Origin: Bacillota bacterium
Lineage (GTDB): Bacteria > Bacillota > Clostridia > Saccharofermentanales > DTU023
NCBI GenBank assembly: GCA_023622515.1
Contig: JAMNZB010000007.1
Coordinates: 1 to 64,000, forward strand
Direction of reading: 5' to 3'
Length of the DNA stretch: 64,000 nucleotides
The notes below the pieces were generated by a model. That model did no database searches. It saw only the letters and a list, made by a program, of their open reading frames with translations, and was not told where the DNA came from. Position 1 is the stretch's first letter. Every line of letters begins with the position of its first letter. Position numbers and translations under genes: made by a program. Shown in pieces: positions 22,008 to 34,208 of this stretch.

Positions 22008-22583
22008 TGCCTAACCTCCTGATGGTTCCAGAATAGAAGAAATTTGCTGCAAATAACACGACACAGAAAGAGAAAAACTGAGATAAATTGAAAGTAGACA
22101 TAGCTTGTCCAGCTTTTTAGACGCTCACCTCTTCCTTGCAAGGTAATTATACTATTAGCTGCTGACAAATGCTGGATAAAGATTAATTTCCATACAATTT
22201 TCCGGCCTAAATATTATTTTTACCATTTAGTATACAGGGAATACGTAATTTTTTTGAATTATCAATCGGACAATTATCTTCAAGGTGTGAGAGCAAATTG
22301 AATAGGCAAGCATTTTAATAGCAGAAACTTCTTGCTGTCTATTTGCTAATGCTTAAAAAATGTTAATAGGGATTAAAATTTGTTAAAAAGCACAATTATT
22401 AATTATTTAAATAAGTTCAAGTAAGATTATTTTTACATAATATAGAAAATTAAAGTAAATGTTGATAAATTGCTAAACGTTATTATTATTAAAATATGTT
22501 GTAACGCTATGCCTTGTAAGGCTTGTTAGCTAGGAATATAGCTGGTTGTGAATAGAGATTATGGTATTGAGGAGGTTAAGAAG
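22008..22583 (+). other. AT-rich divergent intergenic region
   Basis: This 576-bp region separates the XRE regulator (minus) from the surface-protein gene (plus). It is very A/T-rich from 22190 to 22500. Two short palindromes are visible, CCTTGCAAGG (22133-22142) and GCCTTGTAAGGC (about 22511-22522), which share CCTTG.AAGG and might be regulator sites. No further genes are apparent. Confidence 0.4.
22462..22489 (+). promoter_or_regulatory. Possible promoter of the surface-protein gene
   Basis: TTGATA (22462-22467), 16 bp, TATTAT (22484-22489). In such A/T-rich sequence, chance matches are common, so confidence is low. Confidence 0.35.
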
Positions 22584-25316
22584 ATGAGAAAATATAGCAA
22601 GCAAGGGAGCCTTATTTTTACCTTGCTCCTTATTGTGGGATTAGTTCTGCAAGTTTATTCCCCCGTTCTACTAGCTGAACAGAGCGACTCTCCGGGAGAT
22701 GTTGCTGAAGAATTAGTGGATGATAATGTTAATCAAGAAGAGTCTGCCGATTTAGAAGGTCAAAATGATGAGGCCAACGAGGAGACTTTTAATATTGAGG
22801 AAGAAGCTGCCGAACCTTTTTCGGAAGAACTTACGGGTTTTGAGGGAGGAAGCCAAGAGGAAGAACAAGAGCAGGAAGAGCAAGGGGAAGAGCAGGAAGG
22901 TGATGAGGATAATTCATTCCTTGATCTTATCGAAGAAGCTTCACCGAACACTGAATCAGAATGGCCTGTAGAACCTGTTGGTATGCAAAAATCGGGTTCC
23001 AGAGGTGGCCCAACAGTTACATATTCAGGTGCATTAACAGTAAAACGCAGTGAAGTTGTCGACAGAACATTTATGGACTATGACAAATGGAATTTGAATG
23101 ACGCTTGGGCTTCGTTTATGGACTATGCCCTCTGGCAGAAATCCGGTATTGTCGCCATGCTGTCCAAAGTTACCATTAACGGTCAGTCCATTGAGCCACA
23201 AAACGGTGATTATTGGGCATATACACAGATGTATCAGGCTATGGGGGGAAGCGGCACAACATCTTTTACCAACAAACTAAGTAAGGTTGCCGTCTTGTGT
23301 AATAAGGCGAGAAGCGTACCCGCTAACTTGCCGCTCAGTGCTCATCCACAGCTGATAGAAGAGAACACTTATACAGCACCTTTTACCTTCAAGACAGACT
23401 ATAGTGTCGATTATTCATCCTACTCGCCCCTTTTTAAAAATGACTTCATCTTAATTGATGACTACCGTCAGGTAAGCTTTGAGTTTGCCCCATCTGCCGA
23501 TGGAGAAACGCACGGCCGTTTTACAGACCCGATTGAGCTTCTATCCTTAGGTGGTTACCAAAATGTAAAAAAGCCCAATAATGCTGTAGGGCTTGTTCAA
23601 GGGCAAAGCATGAATGTCGCAGGACTTGGCATCCCCAACTACGAATTAGATGAAGGCTGGGAAATCAAAGAGATTAGCGACGGGACAAATGTCTACACGG
23701 AAAATCAAATTCTAAACAAAGAAGTAGATGAAAATATTACCTATACCATCAAACTGCATAAGCCTAGAATCAAAGTCGTTGTTCCTGCTATCTGGTATCC
23801 GGTAGACAAAGATAGCGGTGAAGTGATCTCCGGCTTACATCCTATTCCGACCTGTCTGGACATGTATCCCCGGTCGGAAATAGCTAAACTCAACGAAGAT
23901 ACGGACGTATATGACATTAACCTGGCGGCCATTCCTGAGCCATTACCCGGTAGCTATACAGAAAACAACTTTAATTTGACGGCAAGTATTTTGTTTACGG
24001 ACCGATTCCATCGAGTTTCTGCACAAGGCTACAATCATTTTACTATTAAGCCGGTCAGTTCCGTTGTTAAAGTTGAGTATGGCAATGAGGTGTTTGAAGA
24101 TGTCAGTAATGGTATCCAGGGTGCAACCGGAACCCCTTATCAGGAAGGTGAGACCATGCATATGTATCTTGCTGTTCGAACGCCTGCCACCCTTTCCGGA
24201 GCAACACTCAAAGACGGTGATGTTACCGTTACAAACCAAATGACTGCAGAGGAGATTCGTGCTGCCTTAATTGGTCATATAGAAAAAGTAGTCTATGTTG
24301 ATCTGGATCAGCTGCAACAGGTTGACCTTGATTTAAACAACTTAGATAAACTCTTCCTCTTCCGCTATGAAACGGGTGATGATGGTGCCTTTATCAAAGA
24401 TGCAGGCACCGGCGAGTATATTAACTATATGACGACTGGCTTTGACGGGCTGCCCGACGGCAAATACGAGGCTGTCTTCCCCATCTATTGGCAATATAAT
24501 ATTCCTACTGGCTTTGGTGCTGCTGATGAGTATGTGCGCAACCGTTATAAACTTGATGATACCTTCCACTTCTCCTTTACCAAGACCTCTCTGGTCGATG
24601 TCGAAGGAACAAAAAAATGGGAGGATAATAATAATCAAGCCGGTAAACGTCCGGCTAGTATAACCATTACTTTACTCGCTGATGATATAGAGCAAGCCTC
24701 AAAAACAGTAACTGCAGCAGATGATTGGACCTGGTCTTTTACGGATTTACCAAAGAATAATGAGAATGGAGAAAAAATTATTTACACCATCAAAGAAAAT
24801 CCGGTTGCAGGCTACGCTGCGCCTGTAATTACAGGTGATGCTGAGGAAGGCTTTGTCGTAACAAACCGCTACAAGTCTACACCGGAGCCCCCCATAGATC
24901 CAGCCGATCCCGATCCTCTAGTACCGGAAGAAGAAACGGAATGTGTTGTTATCTTTAAGTTAAATGGCGGGAACTTCAACGGGTCTACAGCGGATGTTGT
25001 AATAATCTGTGAATATGGCGAGGTGATCAGTATTCTAGAGGCCCCTATCCGTGAAGGTTATGAATTTATGTACTGGGAAGGCTCTGCCTACTATCCCGGG
25101 GAAAGCTACACGGTAACCGGTAGCCATACTTTTATTGCCCGCTGGGCAAAAAAGGCTGGTGGTATAGAAGGTTCGGGCAAGCTAGAAGAGACAGATTTCG
25201 GACCTCCGGTTTTCCAAAAAGCTGCATATCAATTACCAAAGACTGCTGCAGCTAGTGGTTTTAGCCCCGAAATGAGCATAACTGTTAGTCTCTTACTCAG
25301 CTTCTTAAGTAAATAA
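22584..25316 (+). CDS. Large cell-surface protein with Cna-B, InlB repeat and LPKTA tail
   Basis: This 910-aa protein has a signal peptide (residues 9-31), a Glu/Gln-rich linker (about 32-130), a long region of no recognised family (about 150-665), a Cna-B domain (about 672-763: EGTKKWEDNN ... IYTIKENPVAGY ... VTNRY), and an InlB B-repeat (about 785-855, FKLNGGNFNG ... REGYEFMYWEG). The tail is LPKTA (884-888), a short hydrophobic stretch and a final Lys, resembling a sortase signal but with A for G and a short anchor of about 14 residues. No sortase gene is in the window. AGGAGG is eight bases before ATG 22584; a GTG at 22548 has no SD. It is probably a wall-linked adhesin or pilin-like protein. 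Confidence 0.8.
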   Translation: MRKYSKQGSLIFTLLLIVGLVLQVYSPVLLAEQSDSPGDVAEELVDDNVNQEESADLEGQNDEANEETFNIEEEAAEPFSEELTGFEGGSQEEEQEQEEQGEEQEGDEDNSFLDLIEEASPNTESEWPVEPVGMQKSGSRGGPTVTYSGALTVKRSEVVDRTFMDYDKWNLNDAWASFMDYALWQKSGIVAMLSKVTINGQSIEPQNGDYWAYTQMYQAMGGSGTTSFTNKLSKVAVLCNKARSVPANLPLSAHPQLIEENTYTAPFTFKTDYSVDYSSYSPLFKNDFILIDDYRQVSFEFAPSADGETHGRFTDPIELLSLGGYQNVKKPNNAVGLVQGQSMNVAGLGIPNYELDEGWEIKEISDGTNVYTENQILNKEVDENITYTIKLHKPRIKVVVPAIWYPVDKDSGEVISGLHPIPTCLDMYPRSEIAKLNEDTDVYDINLAAIPEPLPGSYTENNFNLTASILFTDRFHRVSAQGYNHFTIKPVSSVVKVEYGNEVFEDVSNGIQGATGTPYQEGETMHMYLAVRTPATLSGATLKDGDVTVTNQMTAEEIRAALIGHIEKVVYVDLDQLQQVDLDLNNLDKLFLFRYETGDDGAFIKDAGTGEYINYMTTGFDGLPDGKYEAVFPIYWQYNIPTGFGAADEYVRNRYKLDDTFHFSFTKTSLVDVEGTKKWEDNNNQAGKRPASITITLLADDIEQASKTVTAADDWTWSFTDLPKNNENGEKIIYTIKENPVAGYAAPVITGDAEEGFVVTNRYKSTPEPPIDPADPDPLVPEEETECVVIFKLNGGNFNGSTADVVIICEYGEVISILEAPIREGYEFMYWEGSAYYPGESYTVTGSHTFIARWAKKAGGIEGSGKLEETDFGPPVFQKAAYQLPKTAAASGFSPEMSITVSLLLSFLSK

Positions 25317-25491: not shown

Positions 25492-25519
25492 TTGACAGTT
25501 GCCGCAGAGAGTTTATAAT
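25492..25519 (+). promoter_or_regulatory. Consensus sigma-A promoter of the NifU/NifX/MinD operon
   Basis: Perfect TTGACA (25492-25497) and perfect TATAAT (25514-25519), with a 16-bp spacer. This is the best promoter match in the window and gives a leader of about 45 nt. Confidence 0.8.
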
Positions 25520-25568
25520 ACGAATAGATGGCATATGTCAAAAACAATAAAATGGAGTGAGGTGATTT

Positions 25569-25943
25569 ATCATCTATTCAGACAAAGTCATTGAACATTT
25601 TATGTGTCCGCAAAATGCCCGCAGTATGCCGGATGCAGACGCAGAGGGGAGCTACGGAGATCCTTCTTGTGGCGACTCCATAACCGTTTACATAAAAGTA
25701 AAAGATAATCGCATAGAGGACATTAGTTATCTTGTGTTTGGCTGTGCTGCCTCAGTGGCAACATCCAGTATGACTTCGGTATTGGCAAAGGGCAAAAGCT
25801 TGGAAGAAGCATTGAATATTAGGGAAGAGGACATTGTTCGGGCTTTAGACGGACTTCCTGAAAGTAAGATTCATTGCTCAAATCTAGGAGTGAGCGGACT
25901 ACGTAAGGCCATCAAGAACTATTTAAGTAAACACAGTATGTAG
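25569..25943 (+). CDS. NifU/IscU-like Fe-S scaffold protein, probable non-AUG start
   Basis: This 124-aa protein is an IscU/NifU-N scaffold with the three cluster ligands Cys34 (GDPSCGD), Cys59 (FGCAAS) and Cys103 (IHCSNLG), and the conserved Asp after the first Cys. The first ATG in frame is at 25602, without any SD. Upstream in the same frame the codons give I-IYSDKVIEHFMCPQN, which matches the universally conserved N-terminal helix (M-x-YS-x-KV-x-x-HF-x-x-P-x-N). GAGGTGAT (25559-25566), an exact anti-SD match, stands six bases before ATC 25569. I therefore place the start at ATC 25569; ATC 25572 is the alternative. It is first in a five-gene operon of metal-cluster proteins. Confidence 0.8.
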   Translation: MIYSDKVIEHFMCPQNARSMPDADAEGSYGDPSCGDSITVYIKVKDNRIEDISYLVFGCAASVATSSMTSVLAKGKSLEEALNIREEDIVRALDGLPESKIHCSNLGVSGLRKAIKNYLSKHSM

Positions 25944-25956
25944 AAGGAGGAAGTTT

Positions 25957-26325
25957 ATGAAAATAGCAGTTCCTGTGGACCAAAAAACTTTAGATTCCGG
26001 TGTGTGTGCATCCTTTGGACGTGCCCCCTATTTCCTCATTTATGACTCGGAAAAGAAAGAAAGCAGCTTTATTGATAACAGTGCGGCAACCAGCGCCGGT
26101 GGGGCGGGAATTAGAGCAGCCCAAATAATTATCGATAGCGGGGCGGATGTCCTGCTTGCTCTGCGTCTGGGAGATAACGCTGCTGATGTGTTAAAACCGG
26201 CTGAGATAAAAATATATAAACCGACCCCGGTTTCTGCAAAAGAAAATATTGACGCTTTCCTTGCCGGCAATCTTTCATTGTTGGAAGATATTCATGCCGG
26301 CTTCCACAGACACGAGGGACGCTAA
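25957..26325 (+). CDS. NifX/NifB-family (dinitrogenase cofactor-binding fold) protein 1
   Basis: This 122-aa protein has the NifX/NafY/ORP fold (MKIAVPVDQ, FGRAPYFLIYD, AGIRAAQIIIDSGADVLLA). In known relatives the fold binds Fe-Mo precursors or, in Desulfovibrio orange protein, a Mo-Cu cluster. The C-terminus is His-rich (HAGFHRHEGR), a possible metal site. AAGGAGGAAG precedes the ATG. It is followed one base later by the first ATPase gene. No nitrogenase genes are in the window, so a nitrogenase role is unlikely. Confidence 0.88.
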   Translation: MKIAVPVDQKTLDSGVCASFGRAPYFLIYDSEKKESSFIDNSAATSAGGAGIRAAQIIIDSGADVLLALRLGDNAADVLKPAEIKIYKPTPVSAKENIDAFLAGNLSLLEDIHAGFHRHEGR

Positions 26326-26326
26326 A

Positions 26327-27187
26327 ATGAGAATAGCCGTGCTAAGCGGCAAGGGCGGTACAGGGAAAACACTGGTATCGGTAAATTTGGCAGCTGTGGC
26401 GAAAACAGCCATATATGTAGACTGTGATGTTGAAGAGCCGAATGGTCATCTTTTCTTCAAGCCCGAGGGGGTTCAAGAAGAAGATATAAGCGTTAAAATT
26501 CCCGAAGTGGATGAGGCCCTATGTAAGGGATGCCGTAAATGTGTTGATTTCTGTCAGTTTCATGCTCTTGCCTATGCCAAAAACAAACTAATTATTTTTG
26601 AAGAGGTTTGTCATTCCTGCGGAGGCTGTGTTTTGCTTTGTCCGGAAAAGGCTCTCTCGGAAAAAGATAAGGTCATTGGCAGAATTCAGCGGGGTACTTC
26701 AGAAGGTGTATCAGTACATACGGGAATTTTAAATACCGGTGAAGCCTCAGGTGTTCCCATCATTAATGAATTACTTGCCGAGACAAACTTAGAAGCCGGT
26801 AAAACAATTGTTATTGACTGCCCGCCCGGAAGTGCCTGCGTTGTCATGGAAAGCATTAAAGACGCAGACTACTGTATATTAGTGGCTGAGCCTACCCTCT
26901 TTGGTGCCCATAACCTCAAGATGGTGTATGACTTAGTAAGGCTGTTTAACAAACCCTTTGGAGTCGTTCTTAACAAGTGTTTAGGGGGGGATAATCCCTC
27001 GGAAAAATTTTGTGTAGAGAGAGAGATCAATATTTTAGACCGGATTCCTTTTGACCGTGAACTGGGAGTCTTGAACTCAAATGCGGAAATTGTCGTTCGT
27101 AAAAACGAAGACTATAGAAAAAAGTTTGGCTCTTTGTTTGAGGCAATTAAGAGGGAGGTGCAGAGTGAAGCAGTTATTAATTCTTAG
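26327..27187 (+). CDS. MinD/Mrp-type ATPase with two-cluster ferredoxin insert (1)
   Basis: This 286-aa protein is a deviant-Walker P-loop ATPase (GKGGTGKT, residues 8-15; later DCDVEEPNGHLF and VIDCPPG) with a ferredoxin-like insert that has two 4Fe-4S motifs: CKGCRKCVDFC (about 66-76) and CHSCGGCVLLCP (about 96-107). This architecture is that of the ParA/MinD ATPases in the Desulfovibrio orp operon and of many archaeal/clostridial Mrp-like proteins. ATG 26327 has GAGGGA eight bases upstream. It overlaps the second ATPase gene by 23 bp. Confidence 0.92.
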   Translation: MRIAVLSGKGGTGKTLVSVNLAAVAKTAIYVDCDVEEPNGHLFFKPEGVQEEDISVKIPEVDEALCKGCRKCVDFCQFHALAYAKNKLIIFEEVCHSCGGCVLLCPEKALSEKDKVIGRIQRGTSEGVSVHTGILNTGEASGVPIINELLAETNLEAGKTIVIDCPPGSACVVMESIKDADYCILVAEPTLFGAHNLKMVYDLVRLFNKPFGVVLNKCLGGDNPSEKFCVEREINILDRIPFDRELGVLNSNAEIVVRKNEDYRKKFGSLFEAIKREVQSEAVINS

Positions 27188-28028
27188 CGGCAAAGGCGGC
27201 ACCGGTAAGACGACCATAGCCAGTGCCTTTATAAAGCTGGCTCAGGCTAAGACCTATGCCGACTGTGATGTAGATGCTCCTAACTTGCACCTGGTTACCA
27301 ATTGGGAAACTGAACCTGAAAAAAGCAACTTTTATGGCTTGCCGAAAGCGGAAATTAATAGCCAATTGTGCACGGAATGTGATCTATGCCGACAGCATTG
27401 TCGCTTTGCGGCTATTTCAGTGGATGAAAAATATCAGGTGAATCCCTTTGCCTGTGAAGGCTGTGGGGTTTGCGAGTATGTCTGCCCGGCAGGAGCGGTC
27501 ACTCTAGTGCCTGCTGCAGCCGGAGAATTAATGCTTTATTCCGCTGGTGAAAAAGTCTTCTCCACAGCCCAGCTCAAAATGGGTAGCGGTACCTCCGGCC
27601 TACTTGTTTCCGAAGTAAAAAAACAAATGAGCTTAGCAGCGGTTGATACTAGTTTCGCTATTATTGACGGCTCGCCCGGGATAGGCTGTCCGGTTATTGC
27701 CTCCCTTAGCGGGGTTGACATGGTCCTAATCGTAGCGGAGCCCTCTATATCCGGCATAAGCGACATGGAGCGTATCATCAACACAGCGGCAAAGTTTGGG
27801 GTGAAGATAGCCATATGCGTCAACAAGTACGACACGAATATTGAAAATACCGGCAAGATTGAAGAGTTTTGCTTAAAACACAAGTTAGCTTTTGTTGGCC
27901 GGGTTCCCTTTGATCCCGCTGCCGTAAGAGCTGTTAACGATGGTCAAACGATTGTAGATATAGACTGCCCCTCAGGAAGGGCGGTTGAAAATATTTACCG
28001 CGAGACAATAGATTTACTTTTTGCCTAA
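27165..28028 (+). CDS. MinD/Mrp-type ATPase with two-cluster ferredoxin insert (2)
   Basis: This 287-aa paralogue of the previous gene has P-loop GKGGTGKTT and two 4Fe-4S motifs, CTECDLCRQHC (about 69-79) and CEGCGVCEYVCP (about 99-110). It keeps DCDVDAPNLHL and IIDGSPGIGCP. It starts with GTG 27165 after GGGAGGTG, inside the end of the first ATPase gene, so the two are translationally coupled and probably work as a pair. The last part (DGQTIVDIDCPSGRAV) is typical of this subfamily. Confidence 0.92.
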   Translation: MKQLLILSGKGGTGKTTIASAFIKLAQAKTYADCDVDAPNLHLVTNWETEPEKSNFYGLPKAEINSQLCTECDLCRQHCRFAAISVDEKYQVNPFACEGCGVCEYVCPAGAVTLVPAAAGELMLYSAGEKVFSTAQLKMGSGTSGLLVSEVKKQMSLAAVDTSFAIIDGSPGIGCPVIASLSGVDMVLIVAEPSISGISDMERIINTAAKFGVKIAICVNKYDTNIENTGKIEEFCLKHKLAFVGRVPFDPAAVRAVNDGQTIVDIDCPSGRAVENIYRETIDLLFA

Positions 28029-28042
28029 GGAGGCCGATTAAA

Positions 28043-28402
28043 ATGAAAAAAATTGCTGTAGCAAGTGACCAGGGAATGGTCACAGAACACTTTGGACATT
28101 GTGAAAATTTTATAATTTTCGATACTGAAAACGAACAAATTATTAAGCAAGAGATCCTTGCTAACCCCGGACACAAGCCGGGATTTCTACCTAATTTCCT
28201 TGCCGATTATGGGGTGGATTTGATTATTAGCGGAGGCATGGGCGGAGGTGCTATCGATATTTTTAATGAAAGAAACGTTGAGGTTCTCGTAGGTGCAAAA
28301 GGGAGTGCCGAAGAAGTAGTTGAAGCCTACCTGCAAGGTGCTCTTGAATCCACCGGTTCTGCTTGCCGGGAACACCTGTATCATGATGATTGCGAAAAAT
28401 AG
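28043..28402 (+). CDS. NifX-family (dinitrogenase cofactor-binding fold) protein 2
   Basis: This 119-aa protein has the same fold as the gene at 25957 (MKKIAVASDQGMVTEHFGHCENFIIFD, with GVDLIISGGMGGGAIDIF). It carries an extra Cys in FGHCENF and a C-terminal tail rich in Cys/His/Asp (ACREHLYHDDC) that could bind metal. TAAGGAGG precedes the ATG. It closes the operon and is followed by terminator hairpins. Confidence 0.9.
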   Translation: MKKIAVASDQGMVTEHFGHCENFIIFDTENEQIIKQEILANPGHKPGFLPNFLADYGVDLIISGGMGGGAIDIFNERNVEVLVGAKGSAEEVVEAYLQGALESTGSACREHLYHDDCEK

Positions 28403-28456: not shown

Positions 28457-28541
28457 GCTACTTATCTAACCGGAGTTTTTATTAACTCCGGTATTTTTTT
28501 GCGCATAGAATTTTGCGAATAGACTGATAAGTAGCTTTTTT
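28457..28541 (+). repeat. Nested inverted repeat around the operon terminator
   Basis: GCTACTTATC (28457-28466) pairs perfectly with GATAAGTAGC (28526-28535), which is followed by TTTTTT. Inside this outer stem lies the complete terminator 28469-28500. The result is two stacked terminator-like structures, one inside the other. Confidence 0.5.
28469..28500 (+). terminator. Terminator of the NifU/NifX/MinD operon
   Basis: ACCGGAGTT and AACTCCGGT form a perfect 9-bp stem, followed by ATTTTTTT. Confidence 0.88.
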
Positions 28542-28757: not shown

Positions 28758-30296
28758 ATGAAAAAGAAATTATCAGTATTTCTAAGCTTAGTGATGCTAC
28801 TCGGTTTGTTTGTTGGACTCGTTCCCCAAAACGTTTTAGCTGACGAAGAGGTAAAGTACAAAGAAGAGTTAATCGTTGCTCAAGGTGCTGACCCGGTAAG
28901 TCTTGACCCTCATGGTCAAAACGATCAAAGCTCATCCCGTGTCCGCGTTCAAATTTTTGACAACCTGTTAACTCAAGATAAGAACATGGAATTCCAGCCC
29001 GGCCTTGCCGTATCCTGGGAACAAATTGACGAATTGACCGTTGAGTTTAAATTAAGAGAAGGGGTTGTATTCCAAAATGGTGAGGAATTTACCGCCGATG
29101 ACGTCATTTTTTCGTTAAAAAGATCCATTAACTCTCCCAGCACAGGCCATATCGTTCAAATGATCGATGAAGACAAGCTTGAAAAAATTGATGATTACAC
29201 CGTCCGTGTTGTAACCAAAAATCCTTTTGGACCTTTGCTTGCTCACTTAAGCCACCCGGCAGCCGCTATTGCCAACGAAAAAGCCGTTGAAGAAGCCGGT
29301 GACGATGTAGACATCCAACCGGTCGGAACAGGCCCTTATAAGCTTGTTGAATGGGCACGTGGTGACTATGTTAAATTGGAAAGAAATGAAGATTACTGGG
29401 GCGAACCTGCAAAAACCAAGTATGTCATCTTCCGTAACGTTGCTGAAAATGCCAACCGTACTATCGAAGTTGAAACAGGTGGTGCAGACATTTCCTATGA
29501 CATTCCTCCCAATGATGTTGCCCGTGTAGAAGAAAACGAAGATTTGCAACTCTTCCGTGATAGAAACTTCTCCACAACCTATGTTGGCTTTAACTGTGCC
29601 AAAGAACCCTTTGACAATCCTTTAGTCCGCCGCGCCATCAACCATGCCGTAGATATGGACTCCATTGTTGAAGTTGTCTACTACGGAACAGGTAACAAGG
29701 CCAGTGGTCCTCTTTCCTCAAATGTTACTTACGCTAACCAAGATTTAGAACCCTACGAATACAATCCGGAATTAGCTAAAGAACTCTTGGCAGAAGCCGG
29801 CTATGCTGATGGTTTTGATCTGGTTATCTGGACCAATGACAATAAACAACGTATGGACATTGCGGAAATCTTCCAAAATCAATTGCGTCAAGTTGGTATC
29901 AATGCAACATCTGAAGTTCTTGAATGGGGTGCCTACCTTACCAATACAGCACAAGGTGAACACGATATGTTTATCCTCGGCTGGGTAACCGTAACCGGTG
30001 ATGCAGACTATGGTCTCTATGCCCTCTTCCATTCCAGCCAGCATGGTGATGCCGGTAACCGTACTTTCTACACCAACGAACGTGTAGACGAACTACTTGA
30101 TATCGGACGTAATGCTACATCGGAAGAAGAACGTGCAGAAGCCTACGAAGAAGTCCAAGTCATTATCCGTGACGACGCCCCCTGGATCTTTACCTGGAAC
30201 GGTGAAGACTTAACCGCGGCAAGCGCCAAAGTTGAAGGTTTCGAATTGCATCCGGCAGGCCACTACAGATTAAAGAATGTCACCGTTCAGGAGTAA
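28758..30296 (+). CDS. Peptide ABC transporter substrate-binding protein (SBP family 5), no lipobox
   Basis: This 512-aa protein is a family-5 extracellular binding protein (DppA/OppA type): SLDPHGQNDQSS near the N-terminus, the signature YKLVEWARGDYVKLERNEDYWG (shortened here to its core GDYVKLERNEDYW, about 205), and DNPLVRRAINHAVD (about 290). It should deliver di- or oligopeptides to the permease encoded downstream. The signal peptide (residues 5-28) ends in NVLA-DEE, a signal peptidase I site, and has no Cys, so it is not a lipoprotein; in Gram-positive cells these proteins are normally lipid-anchored. GGAGAAACAAT precedes the ATG. It is first in a five-gene operon. Confidence 0.92.
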   Translation: MKKKLSVFLSLVMLLGLFVGLVPQNVLADEEVKYKEELIVAQGADPVSLDPHGQNDQSSSRVRVQIFDNLLTQDKNMEFQPGLAVSWEQIDELTVEFKLREGVVFQNGEEFTADDVIFSLKRSINSPSTGHIVQMIDEDKLEKIDDYTVRVVTKNPFGPLLAHLSHPAAAIANEKAVEEAGDDVDIQPVGTGPYKLVEWARGDYVKLERNEDYWGEPAKTKYVIFRNVAENANRTIEVETGGADISYDIPPNDVARVEENEDLQLFRDRNFSTTYVGFNCAKEPFDNPLVRRAINHAVDMDSIVEVVYYGTGNKASGPLSSNVTYANQDLEPYEYNPELAKELLAEAGYADGFDLVIWTNDNKQRMDIAEIFQNQLRQVGINATSEVLEWGAYLTNTAQGEHDMFILGWVTVTGDADYGLYALFHSSQHGDAGNRTFYTNERVDELLDIGRNATSEEERAEAYEEVQVIIRDDAPWIFTWNGEDLTAASAKVEGFELHPAGHYRLKNVTVQE

Positions 30297-30350
30297 TAGA
30301 TAATAGATTAAATTCCTGATCTAGGACAAAGACAATTTAGTTTAAGAAGA

Positions 30351-30382
30351 CAAAAGGGGGAGTGCCACACTCCCGCCTTTTG
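30351..30382 (+). other. Intercistronic hairpin after the binding-protein gene
   Basis: CAAAAGGGGGAGTG pairs with CACTCCCGCCTTTTG with a single bulged G and a CCA loop, giving about 13 bp. No T-run follows, and it ends 17 bases before the permease start. It is likely to protect the upstream mRNA from 3' decay and hold binding-protein output above permease output. Confidence 0.7.
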
Positions 30383-30398
30383 CTTATGAGGAGGAATA

Positions 30399-31328
30399 AT
30401 GATACGTTACATCTCGAAGAGGATTTTAATGATGCTTCCTGTTCTTCTAGGAGTTACATTAGTAGCCTTTACGATGCTGTATTTCACACCTGGAGATCCT
30501 GCAAGGCAAACCTTAGGTGAACAGGCAGGTGCTGAACAGCTGGAACAATTCCGCGAAATACATGGCTTAAATGACGGGTATTTTGTTCGTTTTGGTCGCT
30601 ATGTATACAATGCCGTCTTCAAACAGGACCTGGGTTTAAGTTACCGCAACAGGCAGCCGGTTTTTGCAGAGATTGCTACCCGCTTTCCCGCTACCTTAAA
30701 GCTTGCCGGCATGGGTGTCTTGCTGGCTGTATCAATTGGTATACCAGTGGGGATTATTTCAGCAATCAAGCAATACTCCCTGCTTGATAATGTGACCATG
30801 ATTTTAGCTTTGATTGGTGTCAGTATGCCAAACTTTTGGCAAGGGATGTTGCTGATTCTATTATTTTCTGTAAAATTAGGCTGGCTTCCTTCGTCCGGTT
30901 TTAATACATGGAAGCAGTTCATTTTGCCGGTTGTTACGCTCGGTACCTCAACAGCGGCCATTATTACCCGTATGACCCGCTCCAGTATGCTTGAGGTTAT
31001 TCGCGAGGACTACATTCGAACAGCTCGTGCGAAAGGGCAAAAGGAGTCCAAGGTTATTTTACGCCATGCACTAGGAAATGCCTTAATACCCATCATAACA
31101 ACCGTAGGCTTACAATTCGGTTACCTTCTTGGTGGTGCTGTTCTTACAGAGTCTATTTTCTCTGTGCCCGGGGTTGGTCGTTTAATCGTTGATTCCATCA
31201 AAATGAAAGACTTCCCTATTGTTCAAGGGGGTGTATTATTTATCGCCGTAACATTTAGTTTTGTTAACTTGTTTGTGGATATTTTATATGCCTTCGTAGA
31301 TCCGAGAATACGCTCACAGTATCGTTAG
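30399..31328 (+). CDS. Peptide ABC transporter permease (DppB/OppB type)
   Basis: This 309-aa membrane protein has six helices, the N-terminal pattern YISKRILMMLPVLLGVT of DppB-type permeases, and the EAA loop (DYIRTARAKGQKESKVILRHALGNALIP, seen about residues 205-230). It forms one half of the membrane channel with the next gene. GAGGAGG precedes the ATG. Family length is 305-340 aa. Confidence 0.93.
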   Translation: MIRYISKRILMMLPVLLGVTLVAFTMLYFTPGDPARQTLGEQAGAEQLEQFREIHGLNDGYFVRFGRYVYNAVFKQDLGLSYRNRQPVFAEIATRFPATLKLAGMGVLLAVSIGIPVGIISAIKQYSLLDNVTMILALIGVSMPNFWQGMLLILLFSVKLGWLPSSGFNTWKQFILPVVTLGTSTAAIITRMTRSSMLEVIREDYIRTARAKGQKESKVILRHALGNALIPIITTVGLQFGYLLGGAVLTESIFSVPGVGRLIVDSIKMKDFPIVQGGVLFIAVTFSFVNLFVDILYAFVDPRIRSQYR

Positions 31329-31342
31329 AGGAAGGAGTCAAG

Positions 31343-32239
31343 ATGATAAATTTTGTTGTAAATGATACGCAAGAAAGTTCTGTAGTGGAATATAAAAAGC
31401 GTTCGCAGTTTAGAGAAGTTACACGTAGATTGAGCCACGACAAGATGGCCATGCTGGGTCTTGCTATTTTAGTTGCACTGATTTTGATGGCTATTTTTGC
31501 TGATGTCATCGCTCCTGAAGGCTATGACAACCAGAACTTTATGATTCGTCATCAGGGCCCGAGCAAGGAACATTGGTTTGGCACAGATCACTTAGGCCGC
31601 TGTATCTTCGACCGGATTGTCCATGGTTCCAGAATTTCTCTTTCTGTTGGTATCATCAGTGTCGGTATCGCGATCTTTTTCGGTGGTTCACTAGGGGCAA
31701 TTGCCGGATACTATGGGGGCGTAGTCGATAACGCCATCATGAGATTTATGGATATTTTACTGGCTATTCCCAGTATTCTGCTTGCCATTTCTATCGTTTC
31801 TGCACTTGGAGGCGGTTTGTTTAACGTTATGCTTGCGGTCGGAATATCATCCATTCCCGGCTTTTCAAGAATTACCCGAGCTTCCATTATTACCATCAAG
31901 GAGCAGGAATTTGTAGAGGCGGCTAGGGCAGTAGGAGCCAGTGATGCGAGAATTATCCGCAGACACCTGCTTCCCAACGCCTTAGCCCCCATTATTGTTC
32001 AGGGAACACTCGGTGTTGCCGGTGCGATTTTATCTGCAGCCGGTCTTAGCTTTCTTGGCTTAGGCTTGTCTCCGCCAACCCCGGAATGGGGCGCCATGCT
32101 TTCAGCAGGTAGAGACCACATCCGTGACCATACCTGGTCAACCCTTTTCCCCGGTTTATTCATCATGATTACCATCTTGTCCCTAAATCTCTTGGGCGAT
32201 GGTCTACGTGATGCCCTGGATCCAAAACTAAAGAATTAA
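31343..32239 (+). CDS. Peptide ABC transporter permease (DppC/OppC type)
   Basis: This 298-aa membrane protein shows the DppC pattern: N-terminal helix preceded by RRLSHDKMAMLGLAIL, the segment HWFGTDHLGRCIFDRIVHG (core FGTDHLGRCIFDR), and an EAA loop (EFVEAARAVGASDARIIRRH). It pairs with the DppB-type subunit. AAGGAG lies six bases before the ATG, 14 bp after the preceding stop. Confidence 0.93.
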   Translation: MINFVVNDTQESSVVEYKKRSQFREVTRRLSHDKMAMLGLAILVALILMAIFADVIAPEGYDNQNFMIRHQGPSKEHWFGTDHLGRCIFDRIVHGSRISLSVGIISVGIAIFFGGSLGAIAGYYGGVVDNAIMRFMDILLAIPSILLAISIVSALGGGLFNVMLAVGISSIPGFSRITRASIITIKEQEFVEAARAVGASDARIIRRHLLPNALAPIIVQGTLGVAGAILSAAGLSFLGLGLSPPTPEWGAMLSAGRDHIRDHTWSTLFPGLFIMITILSLNLLGDGLRDALDPKLKN

Positions 32240-32253
32240 GAGGTATATGAATA

Positions 32254-33237
32254 ATGAAAGAAAAACCAATTTTAGAAATTAAAAATTTAACCGTTCATTA
32301 CGTAACCTCGGATGGTACGACACACGCTATTAACGACCTGAATCTTGAGTTATACGGAGGGCAAACCTTAGGGCTTGTAGGGGAAACCGGCGCCGGAAAA
32401 ACAACCACGGCTTTAGCCATGATGCACCTTATTCCGGATCCGCCCGGAAGAATTATTTCGGGAGAAATTCTTTTCAAAGGACAGGATTTGACGAAAATGA
32501 GGGAGAGTGACCTTAGGCAGATTCGCGGAAATCAAATTTCTATGATTTTCCAAGATCCTATGACTTCCTTGAATCCGACCATGACAGTCGGTGAGCAAAT
32601 TCGTGAAGGTATTGAATTACACCAAAATGTTACTAAGGCCGAAGCTATGAAAAGAGCTTCGGATATGCTTGAGATTGTAGGCATCCCCAGTGAGCGTTAC
32701 CAGGACTATCCCCACCAGTTTTCCGGCGGCATGAAACAGCGGGTTGTTATTGCTATGAGCCTGGCCTGTAATCCGGAAATTCTCATTGCGGATGAGCCGA
32801 CAACAGCGCTTGACGTTACGATTCAAGCCCAGGTCCTCAAGCTGATGGAAAACTTGAAGGATGACTTCAACACCTCCATGCTTATGATTACCCATGACTT
32901 GGGGGTAGTAGCCAATGTTTGTGATACCGTTGCCATTATGTATGCCGGTAGTATTATCGAAAAAGCAAACCGTAATGAACTTTTCAGAAATCCCAGACAT
33001 CCCTATACCATTGGACTTTTTGGCTCTATTCCTAACGTCTATGACGATTCAGACCGCCTTAATCCCATTGAGGGTTTAATGCCTGATCCCACAAACTTAC
33101 CAAGTGGCTGTCGTTTCCATCCGCGCTGCCCTCATGCTATGGAAATTTGTAAAAAGGAATTTCCCGGTCGAACGGATATTGAAGAAGGACATTTTGTTTT
33201 ATGTCACTTGTATGGACAAAAGGAGGGCCAAGCATAA
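32254..33237 (+). CDS. Peptide ABC transporter ATP-binding protein (DppD/OppD type)
   Basis: This 327-aa ATPase has Walker [11 protein letters not shown]-loop [10 protein letters not shown], signature FSGGMKQR, Walker [13 protein letters not shown] and H-loop THD. The C-terminal oligopeptide-transporter tail has a Cys cluster ([14 protein letters not shown]), which in relatives binds a 4Fe-4S cluster. It energises import with the next gene. The last codon overlaps the start of the next gene (TAATG). Confidence 0.94.
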
Positions 33238-34208
33238 TGGAGAAAAAAGTCTTAGTCGAAGCAAAACAATTAAGCAAATACTTTAAAACTTCAGCAGGTA
33301 CCTTGCATGCTGTTGATCACATTGACTTTACGATTAACAGGGGGGAGACCTTGGGTTTGGTTGGTGAATCCGGTTGCGGTAAATCCACAACAGGAAGACT
33401 TCTTCTTCGTCTCCTTGAACCCACCACCGGTGAAGTTACCTATGATGGAGTAGATTTATTGGCCCTAGGTAAAAAAGAGATGAACGAGTATCGCAAGAAA
33501 ATGCAAATCGTTTTCCAAGATCCTTATTCTTCTCTAAATCCCAGGATGAGTTTGACAGAAATCATAGAGGAACCCTTGATTGTCAATAGTGACCTTACTA
33601 ATGCGCAAGAGCGTAGGAAGCGTGTGCGTCAATTGATGGATACGGTTGGCCTTGCCCAGCGCTTAGTTAATGCCTATCCCCACGAGCTGGATGGTGGCCG
33701 TCGTCAAAGAATCGGTATCGCCAGAGCCTTGGCTCTAAAGCCGGAGTTTATTGTTCAAGATGAGCCGGTTTCCTCTCTTGACGTATCTATTCAGGCCCAA
33801 ATTCTAAATCTCATGGCGGACTTGCAGGATGAACTGGGCTTAACCTACCTCTTCATTTCCCATGACCTTAGTGTAGTTAAGCATATCAGTGATCGTATTG
33901 CCGTTATGTATCTGGGCGTTATTGTGGAAAGTGCCGATGCCAAAGAGTTGTTTAAAAAGCAGGAGCATCCTTACACTCAAGCCTTGCTCTCTGCCTTACC
34001 GGTTCCCTCGGTGGATGTTGAACTGAACCCCATCATTTTAAAGGGGGAAATAACCTCGCCGATTGAGCCAAAAGATGCCTGCCGCTTTGCCGCACGTTGC
34101 AATTATAGGCAAGATATCTGTGACCAAAAGGCTCCGGAATTAAAAGAAATACGTCCCGGTCACAAAGTGGCTTGCCACTTTGCCGGACAACTGGAAGAAC
34201 AGATTTAA
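33237..34208 (+). CDS. Peptide ABC transporter ATP-binding protein (DppF/OppF type)
   Basis: This 323-aa ATPase has Walker [11 protein letters not shown]-loop [10 protein letters not shown], Walker [13 protein letters not shown] and H-loop SHD. The ABC signature is LDGGRRQ rather than LSGGQ, a variation I recall in other DppF-type proteins. The tail again has a Cys cluster ([14 protein letters not shown]). ATG 33237 shares its A with the TAA of the upstream gene, and AGGAGGG lies just before. It is the last gene of the importer operon. Confidence 0.94.

Follow-up and report, generated by a model that had tools for sequence, protein, structure and literature searches.

What is a NifU scaffold doing at the head of an operon for two ferredoxin-bearing MinD-type ATPases and two NifX-fold proteins, when a nitrogenase for such proteins to serve is nowhere to be found in the genome? 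The operon concerned is at 25492-28402 of the window, by which is meant the whole 64,000-nucleotide stretch of DNA that was analysed (positions 1 to 64,000, forward strand, of contig JAMNZB010000007.1, here C34, assembly GCA_023622515.1), and comes from a 2.0-Mb, 90%-complete genome of the Clostridia (Bacillota, lineage DTU023). The reading arrived at, to which we give roughly two chances in three, is that its five genes are the core of an orange protein (ORP) type machine for the assembly or transfer of a metal-sulfur cluster, and that they belong to a regulon controlled by a protein of the DUF134 family.

Three operons, one candidate regulon

Directly after the -10 box of the window operon is an exact palindrome, TGGCATATGTCA, which is an instance of the motif TGRCATATGYCA, extended by its flanks to GTTATTGACATATGTCAATAAC. 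There are four exact (zero mismatch) sites in the genome, and three of these are at the promoters of operons of ORP-type genes:

C19:7807-8691, DUF5320-DUF134 operon; exact site, with the upstream operator O1 35 bp upstream of the downstream operator O2
C34:25529, window operon NifU-NifXa-ATPa-ATPb-NifXb; exact O2 site
C63:15091-16928, MBL-Mrp operon; exact site ahead of the operon

The fourth, at C29:12573, is inside a coding frame and was treated as chance rather than as a regulon member.

How do these operons relate to each other? The strongest evidence comes from relatives, where the fullest clostridial layout has nine contiguous genes in the order DUF5320-DUF134-NifU-NifXa-ATPa-ATPb-MBL-Mrp-NifXb, and it is exactly these nine that the three operons jointly hold. 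Because of this, the window operon is considered to be one part of a larger system, the set being predicted to form a single regulon split over three operons, and the odds given above are for the whole of that explanation. The five genes dealt with by the first-pass annotation are thus only part of the machinery; Mrp, MBL, DUF134 and DUF5320, which it lacked, are elsewhere under the same operator. A counterpart of the Desulfovibrio protein MrpORP can also be recognised in two pieces, as the Mrp gene product (C63:16095-16928) matches its positions 1-243 (E 3e-100) and NifXb matches its C-terminal Di-Nase domain, neither of them reaching the 450-bit cut-off of NF041136. By these matches, MrpORP is represented here by separate Mrp and NifXb genes.

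Layout of the window operon

The features are as follows:

25492-25519, + strand: sigma-70 type promoter, TTGACA-16-TATAAT; 12/12 consensus match, the -35 hexamer overlapping O1
25493-25504, no strand: operator half O1, degenerate, TGACAGTTGCCG; 3 mismatches to the motif, 36 bp upstream of O2
25529-25540, no strand: operator O2, the exact palindrome, just downstream of the -10
25569-25943, + strand: NifU/IscU-type Fe-S scaffold, 124 amino acids, probable ATC start; PF01592 126.9 bits, ligand motifs, tree
25957-26325, + strand: NifXa, ORP/MTH1175-like NifX-fold protein with conserved His tail IHAGFHRH; PF02579 (Nitro_FeMo-Co) 74.5 bits, profile matches, tail conservation
26327-27187, + strand: ATPa, MinD-type ATPase with inserted 2x[4Fe-4S] ferredoxin domain, Orp3/Orp4 type; Pfam, invariant Cys, AlphaFold model
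27165-28028, + strand: ATPb, second MinD-type ATPase with 2x[4Fe-4S] insertion, GTG start; Pfam, pairing with ATPa
28043-28402, + strand: NifXb, NifX-fold protein equivalent to the MrpORP C-terminal domain; Nitro_FeMo-Co 81.7 bits, NF041136 positions 265-365 (E 7e-34), conservation
28469-28492, + strand: terminator-like hairpin, then T run; sequence

The families proposed earlier for the five co-directional genes stand, each gene being above its Pfam cut-off (with CbiA/ParA and Fer4 matches in ATPa and ATPb alike), and the promoter that had been called near-perfect is perfect. The position at which the first-pass annotation began, 25492, is that of the promoter, the first gene beginning near 25569. 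A 1-bp junction is indeed present between NifXa and ATPa, whereas the supposed 23-bp junction is an overlap of ATPa and ATPb; NifU and NifXa are separated by 13 bp, and ATPb and NifXb by 14 bp. It had also been said that no nitrogenase was in view, and this extends to the whole genome, in which, at 90% completeness, there is no match to the nitrogenase family (NifD/K/E/N; PF00148), ruling out a nitrogenase context for the operon. PF02579 proteins other than NifXa and NifXb were likewise not found anywhere in the genome.

The operator and its candidate reader

For a palindrome to be considered an operator, what should its distribution be? In nearly all homologous clostridial loci, pairs of TGRCATATGYCA are present 33-40 bp apart around the promoter, the usual geometry being O1 over the -35 (TTGACATATG) and O2 after the -10. 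A class sample of 391 clostridial genomes yielded 29 exact pairs, spread over 28 of the genomes, and none for the reversed control. Of the 33 exact pairs in the DNA examined, 32 stand no more than 450 bp ahead of DUF5320/DUF134; the other precedes NifXa. The single-site (O1) form TTATTGACATATGYC is in 85/391 genomes, against 4 matches for the reversed control, and where O1-only sites were checked they were mostly before DUF134, DUF5320, NifX, MBL or Mrp genes, the remainder being chance-like or unexplained, with two preceding Crp/FNR-like genes. In those two (L415 in genome G357 and L418 in G254) an O1-like site, TTATTGACATATGCC, is directly upstream of the Crp/FNR-like regulator gene, a possible extra member of the regulon.

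DUF134 is the only recurrent helix-turn-helix gene behind exact operator pairs. The protein in this genome is a plain member of its family (PF02001, UPF0251, COG1342; 76.6 bits, where the cut-off is 27), its helix-turn-helix region matches sigma-70 region 4, and two of its cysteines are conserved, C54 (94%) and C107 (100%). Support for its acting as a repressor comes from covariation of the Q-x-I-Y recognition-helix residue with the outer bases of O2: Gly goes with T..A 37 times and with G..C never, and Arg with G..C in 6 cases, mixed bases in 8 and T..A in 3. In a tree of DUF134, members with Gly, Lys or Asn are nested among Arg ones, and one Arg member among Gly ones, mostly with the operator type expected, and these concordant switches argue that the association does not reflect a single event. 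Most likely, then, as far as sequence can tell, DUF134 reads the operator as repressor of the set.

Could something else be doing the reading? It is quite unlikely, in our estimate, that the palindrome is read by a different regulator, or is an extended promoter element, with DUF134 a fellow target. O1 does fall on the -35 box, there are a few sites ahead of the Crp/FNR-like genes just mentioned, and in clusters led by a MerR-like gene instead of DUF134 the operator is mostly absent, so that regulator and operator exchange. However, a promoter element would have no need of O2, a perfect palindrome beyond the -10, and neither the exclusive recurrence of DUF134 behind the pairs nor the covariation of its helix residue with the operator bases suits a fellow target. 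MerR-like-led ORP-type clusters, in which the leading gene has a Cys-rich tail, were seen at L165, L168, L169, L170, L172 and L173. The DUF5320 protein was set aside as the operator-binding protein: its only match is to DUF5320, with no DNA-binding domain, whereas DUF134 matches sigma-70 region 4. Encoded beside DUF134 (C19:7904-8203; L239:5905-6204), it is Gly/Arg-rich and Cys-bearing with a charged coiled-coil-like end, and its composition recalls the cationic tail of the NifX-domain protein IssA. In the literature, with most subscription papers outside reach, no description of a regulator role, operator, regulon or motif was found for DUF134, UPF0251 or COG1342.

Several points count against the explanation as a whole. 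The association between residue and operator has a Fisher p of 9e-6 for the pure classes in a test that ignores relatedness, branch support in the DUF134 tree is modest with few branches resolved, and some Arg members keep T..A. Some DUF134 loci, mainly in distant phyla and archaea, are without a recognisable operator. In the window itself O1 is degenerate and, with its 3 mismatches, weak alone, though its spacing is within the range seen in relatives, and so the case for control of the window operon rests mainly on O2 and the two sister operons. Finally, NifU is present in 14/74 clostridial loci and 19/80 others; most ORP-type clusters do without it, and it is not an obligatory part of them.

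How widespread is the gene set, and is its NifU lead exceptional?

With a threshold of E <= 1e-30, an ATPa homologue is present in 78 of the 391 class genomes, and a GTDB profile scan gave 80 loci distributed over Bacillota, Synergistota, Thermodesulfobacteriota, Chloroflexota, Planctomycetota and several archaeal lineages. A NifX-fold gene is alongside ATPa in 74/74 clostridial loci and in 75/80 of the others, and ATPb accompanies it in 73/74 and 78/80 respectively. The order NifU followed by NifXa-ATPa-ATPb is in ten other genomes, and one archaeal relative has a variant order.

The NifU itself has the motifs GDPSCGD, GCAAS and HCS, and with them the three Cys and one Asp ligands of working scaffolds, together with an extra Cys (HFMCPQN) common to many close kin. 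Its score against the TIGR03419 equivalog, 145.9 bits, is below the cut-off of 187.9. In a tree, the NifU proteins from synergistete as well as clostridial clusters group together with support (99/94), in a clade to which the window NifU is assigned; the housekeeping IscU proteins of the class stand apart from it (98/91). A single origin for all ORP-linked NifU was rejected, since the deltaproteobacterial, chloroflexal and archaeal ones are outside the clostridial clade. One other NifU/IscU is encoded in the genome, on C5, adjoining a cysteine-desulfurase-like gene. Satellite MBL-NifU-Mrp groups, with NifU of the ORP-linked clade, were seen at L176, L180 and L181, lying either away from the ATPase genes or at a distance of some kilobases.

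As the order recurs in other genomes and the NifU has its own clade, the NifU lead counts as a recurring variant of an ORP-type core that is common in anaerobic Bacillota and present also in many other bacteria and archaea; uniqueness of the NifU-led order is ruled out by both the locus survey and the NifU tree. The likeness to orp that had been noted is borne out by the match to 2wfb, the structure of the orange protein from D. gigas, by MrpORP and by the Orp3/Orp4 architecture, and the layout does differ from that in Desulfovibrio. What did not survive the neighbourhood survey is the idea that a NifU lead and two NifX-fold genes are unusual in Bacillota, NifX-ATPase-ATPase being widespread.

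The NifU start deserves comment. After the ribosome site AGGTGA there is no ATG, GTG or TTG at the expected position, 25569, the codon there being ATC; in homologues the corresponding codon is ATT, ATA, TTG or ATG, and the next ATG (25602) would cut off the conserved YSDKVIEHF. It is likely that translation starts at a non-AUG codon, or that a base error is present.

The ATPase pair and the NifX-fold proteins

Each ATPase has, as claimed for it, two 4Fe-4S motifs (two CxxCxxCxxxC), the architecture of the MinD-like ATPases Orp3 and Orp4 (PMC6345978). In an 11-sequence alignment with homologues down to 39% identity, the eight ferredoxin Cys of ATPa and its deviant Walker A (SGKGGTGKT) are invariant, and its AlphaFold model (pLDDT 90.8) has MinD, ATPase-type HypB and ApbC as best fold matches, with CooC1 also among the matches. 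ATPa and ATPb probably form a heterodimer.

Are the ATPases then client-specific metallochaperones, the set maturing a dedicated Fe-S or Mo enzyme in the style of HypB/HypA and [NiFe]-hydrogenase? The inclusion of HypB, ApbC and CooC1 among the fold matches is in keeping with that, as is the occurrence of the set in many anaerobes of differing physiology. Yet no enzyme gene recurs next to the set in clustered clostridial loci and the operator-based regulon search gave the set itself and few others, and such a role is rather improbable. With Mrp, ApbC and NBP35 carriers and ATPase-type HypB the ATPases share the MinD-type fold and deviant Walker A, but here a 2x[4Fe-4S] ferredoxin domain is inserted in the ATPase domain, which is always paired with a second such ATPase. 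The MinD fold, along with the polar MrpORP and putative cell-division role reported for Desulfovibrio (PMC6345978), could also suggest that the ATPases serve cell division or polar positioning, as proposed for the ORP complex there, with metal binding secondary. That we consider very improbable, since a regulon that also includes NifU, NifX-fold proteins and the Mrp carrier speaks for work on metal clusters.

The best profile match of NifXa is 1eo1 (MTH1175; E 8e-27), and it also matches 2wfb (E 6e-17); NifXb finds structures of the TM1816 type, with 2wfb coming in at no better than E 0.07. The His- or Cys/His-rich tails attributed to the two proteins are real and conserved in relatives, H113 (97%) and H117 (95%) in NifXa, and C108 (100%), H111 (95%) and C117 (81%) in NifXb, which besides its Cys/His tail has the invariant motifs HFGHC and NPGHxPGFLP. 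Conservation of the tails argues for a ligand function.

Ligands of what, though? IssA stores thioferrate and supplies ferredoxin clusters, and MTH1175 falls in the IssA clade, according to PMC5524996. By analogy the NifX-fold proteins could be an IssA-like iron-sulfur (thioferrate) store, which the ATPases and NifU load and unload rather than building a special cluster, and the IssA-like composition of DUF5320 fits with this. The NifX fold is certainly shared, but the tails of NifXa and NifXb are short and the long Gly-rich cationic one defining IssA is absent; here there are partner ATPases and a scaffold, and the accessible part of the same source describes no ATPase pair with IssA. A store seems unlikely.

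A proposed working order

How might the ORP-type machine operate under DUF134? By analogy with Desulfovibrio, where in vitro Fe-S clusters pass from the Mrp domain of MrpORP to Orp3-Orp4-Orp8 (PMC6345978), NifU would build an Fe-S cluster, and Mrp/NifXb with the ATPa-ATPb pair would load, move or release it under ATP control, Mrp and NifXb acting jointly as a split MrpORP carrier. Both NifX-fold proteins may bind the cluster via their conserved His or Cys/His, NifXa keeping the product or an intermediate. DUF134 on O1 and O2, around -35 and +1, would repress until a metal, Fe-S or redox signal, sensed through its Cys, frees the promoter. We infer the heterodimer, the order of cluster transfer, repression, signal, metal and client; the gene families, regulon membership, operator geometry and DUF134-operator association are read from sequence. 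A more specific version is tentative, with odds well short of even: DUF134 would be a Cys-based metal- or Fe-S-sensing repressor acting via paired GTTATTGACATATGTCAATAAC, in an anaerobe-specific pathway with its own NifU, and what the ATPase pair passes between the two NifX-fold proteins would be a complex or heterometal cluster not destined for nitrogenase. The D. gigas ORP binds a Mo-Cu cluster; for the window set any specific cluster is a candidate only.

With the Desulfovibrio ORP system (Orp3, Orp4, Orp5, Orp8 and Orp9; PMC6345978) there is in common the ATPase pair with two 4Fe-4S motifs each, an ORP homologue of NifX fold and, as carrier, Mrp/NBP35 together with a Di-Nase domain. In contrast to the fused P-loop and Di-Nase domains of MrpORP there, Mrp and NifXb are separate here; NifU, MBL, DUF134 and DUF5320 are added; and instead of divergent sigma-54 operons there is a sigma-70 type promoter with paired operators, with three operons dispersed in this genome. 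NifX fold and NifU partner are shared with nitrogenase assembly by NifX, NafY and NifB, but here there is no nitrogenase-family protein and the genes are outside a nif cluster.

Neighbouring genes

Upstream (22548-25316) is a gene for a large secreted protein whose N-terminal part is rich in Glu and which has the motif LPKTA close to its C-terminus; it is probably a surface protein anchored in the cell wall. Downstream, past the terminator, the genes at 28758-34208 make up a full ABC transporter of the oligopeptide type, with a binding protein, two permeases and two ATPases.

What the predicted regulon means

By its gene content, the operon is a split, NifU-bearing variant of a widespread ORP-like kind. 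The new part is the predicted regulon, with a defined operator and a candidate regulator from an uncharacterised family. ORP-type ATPase/NifX sets occur widely in anaerobic bacteria and archaea, and what is known of their metal, client and control comes largely from Desulfovibrio. A defined operator makes membership of the set objective, any operon with the paired site belonging to it, while operator and likely cognate regulator point to the inducing signal, and the dedicated NifU ties the set to Fe-S synthesis.

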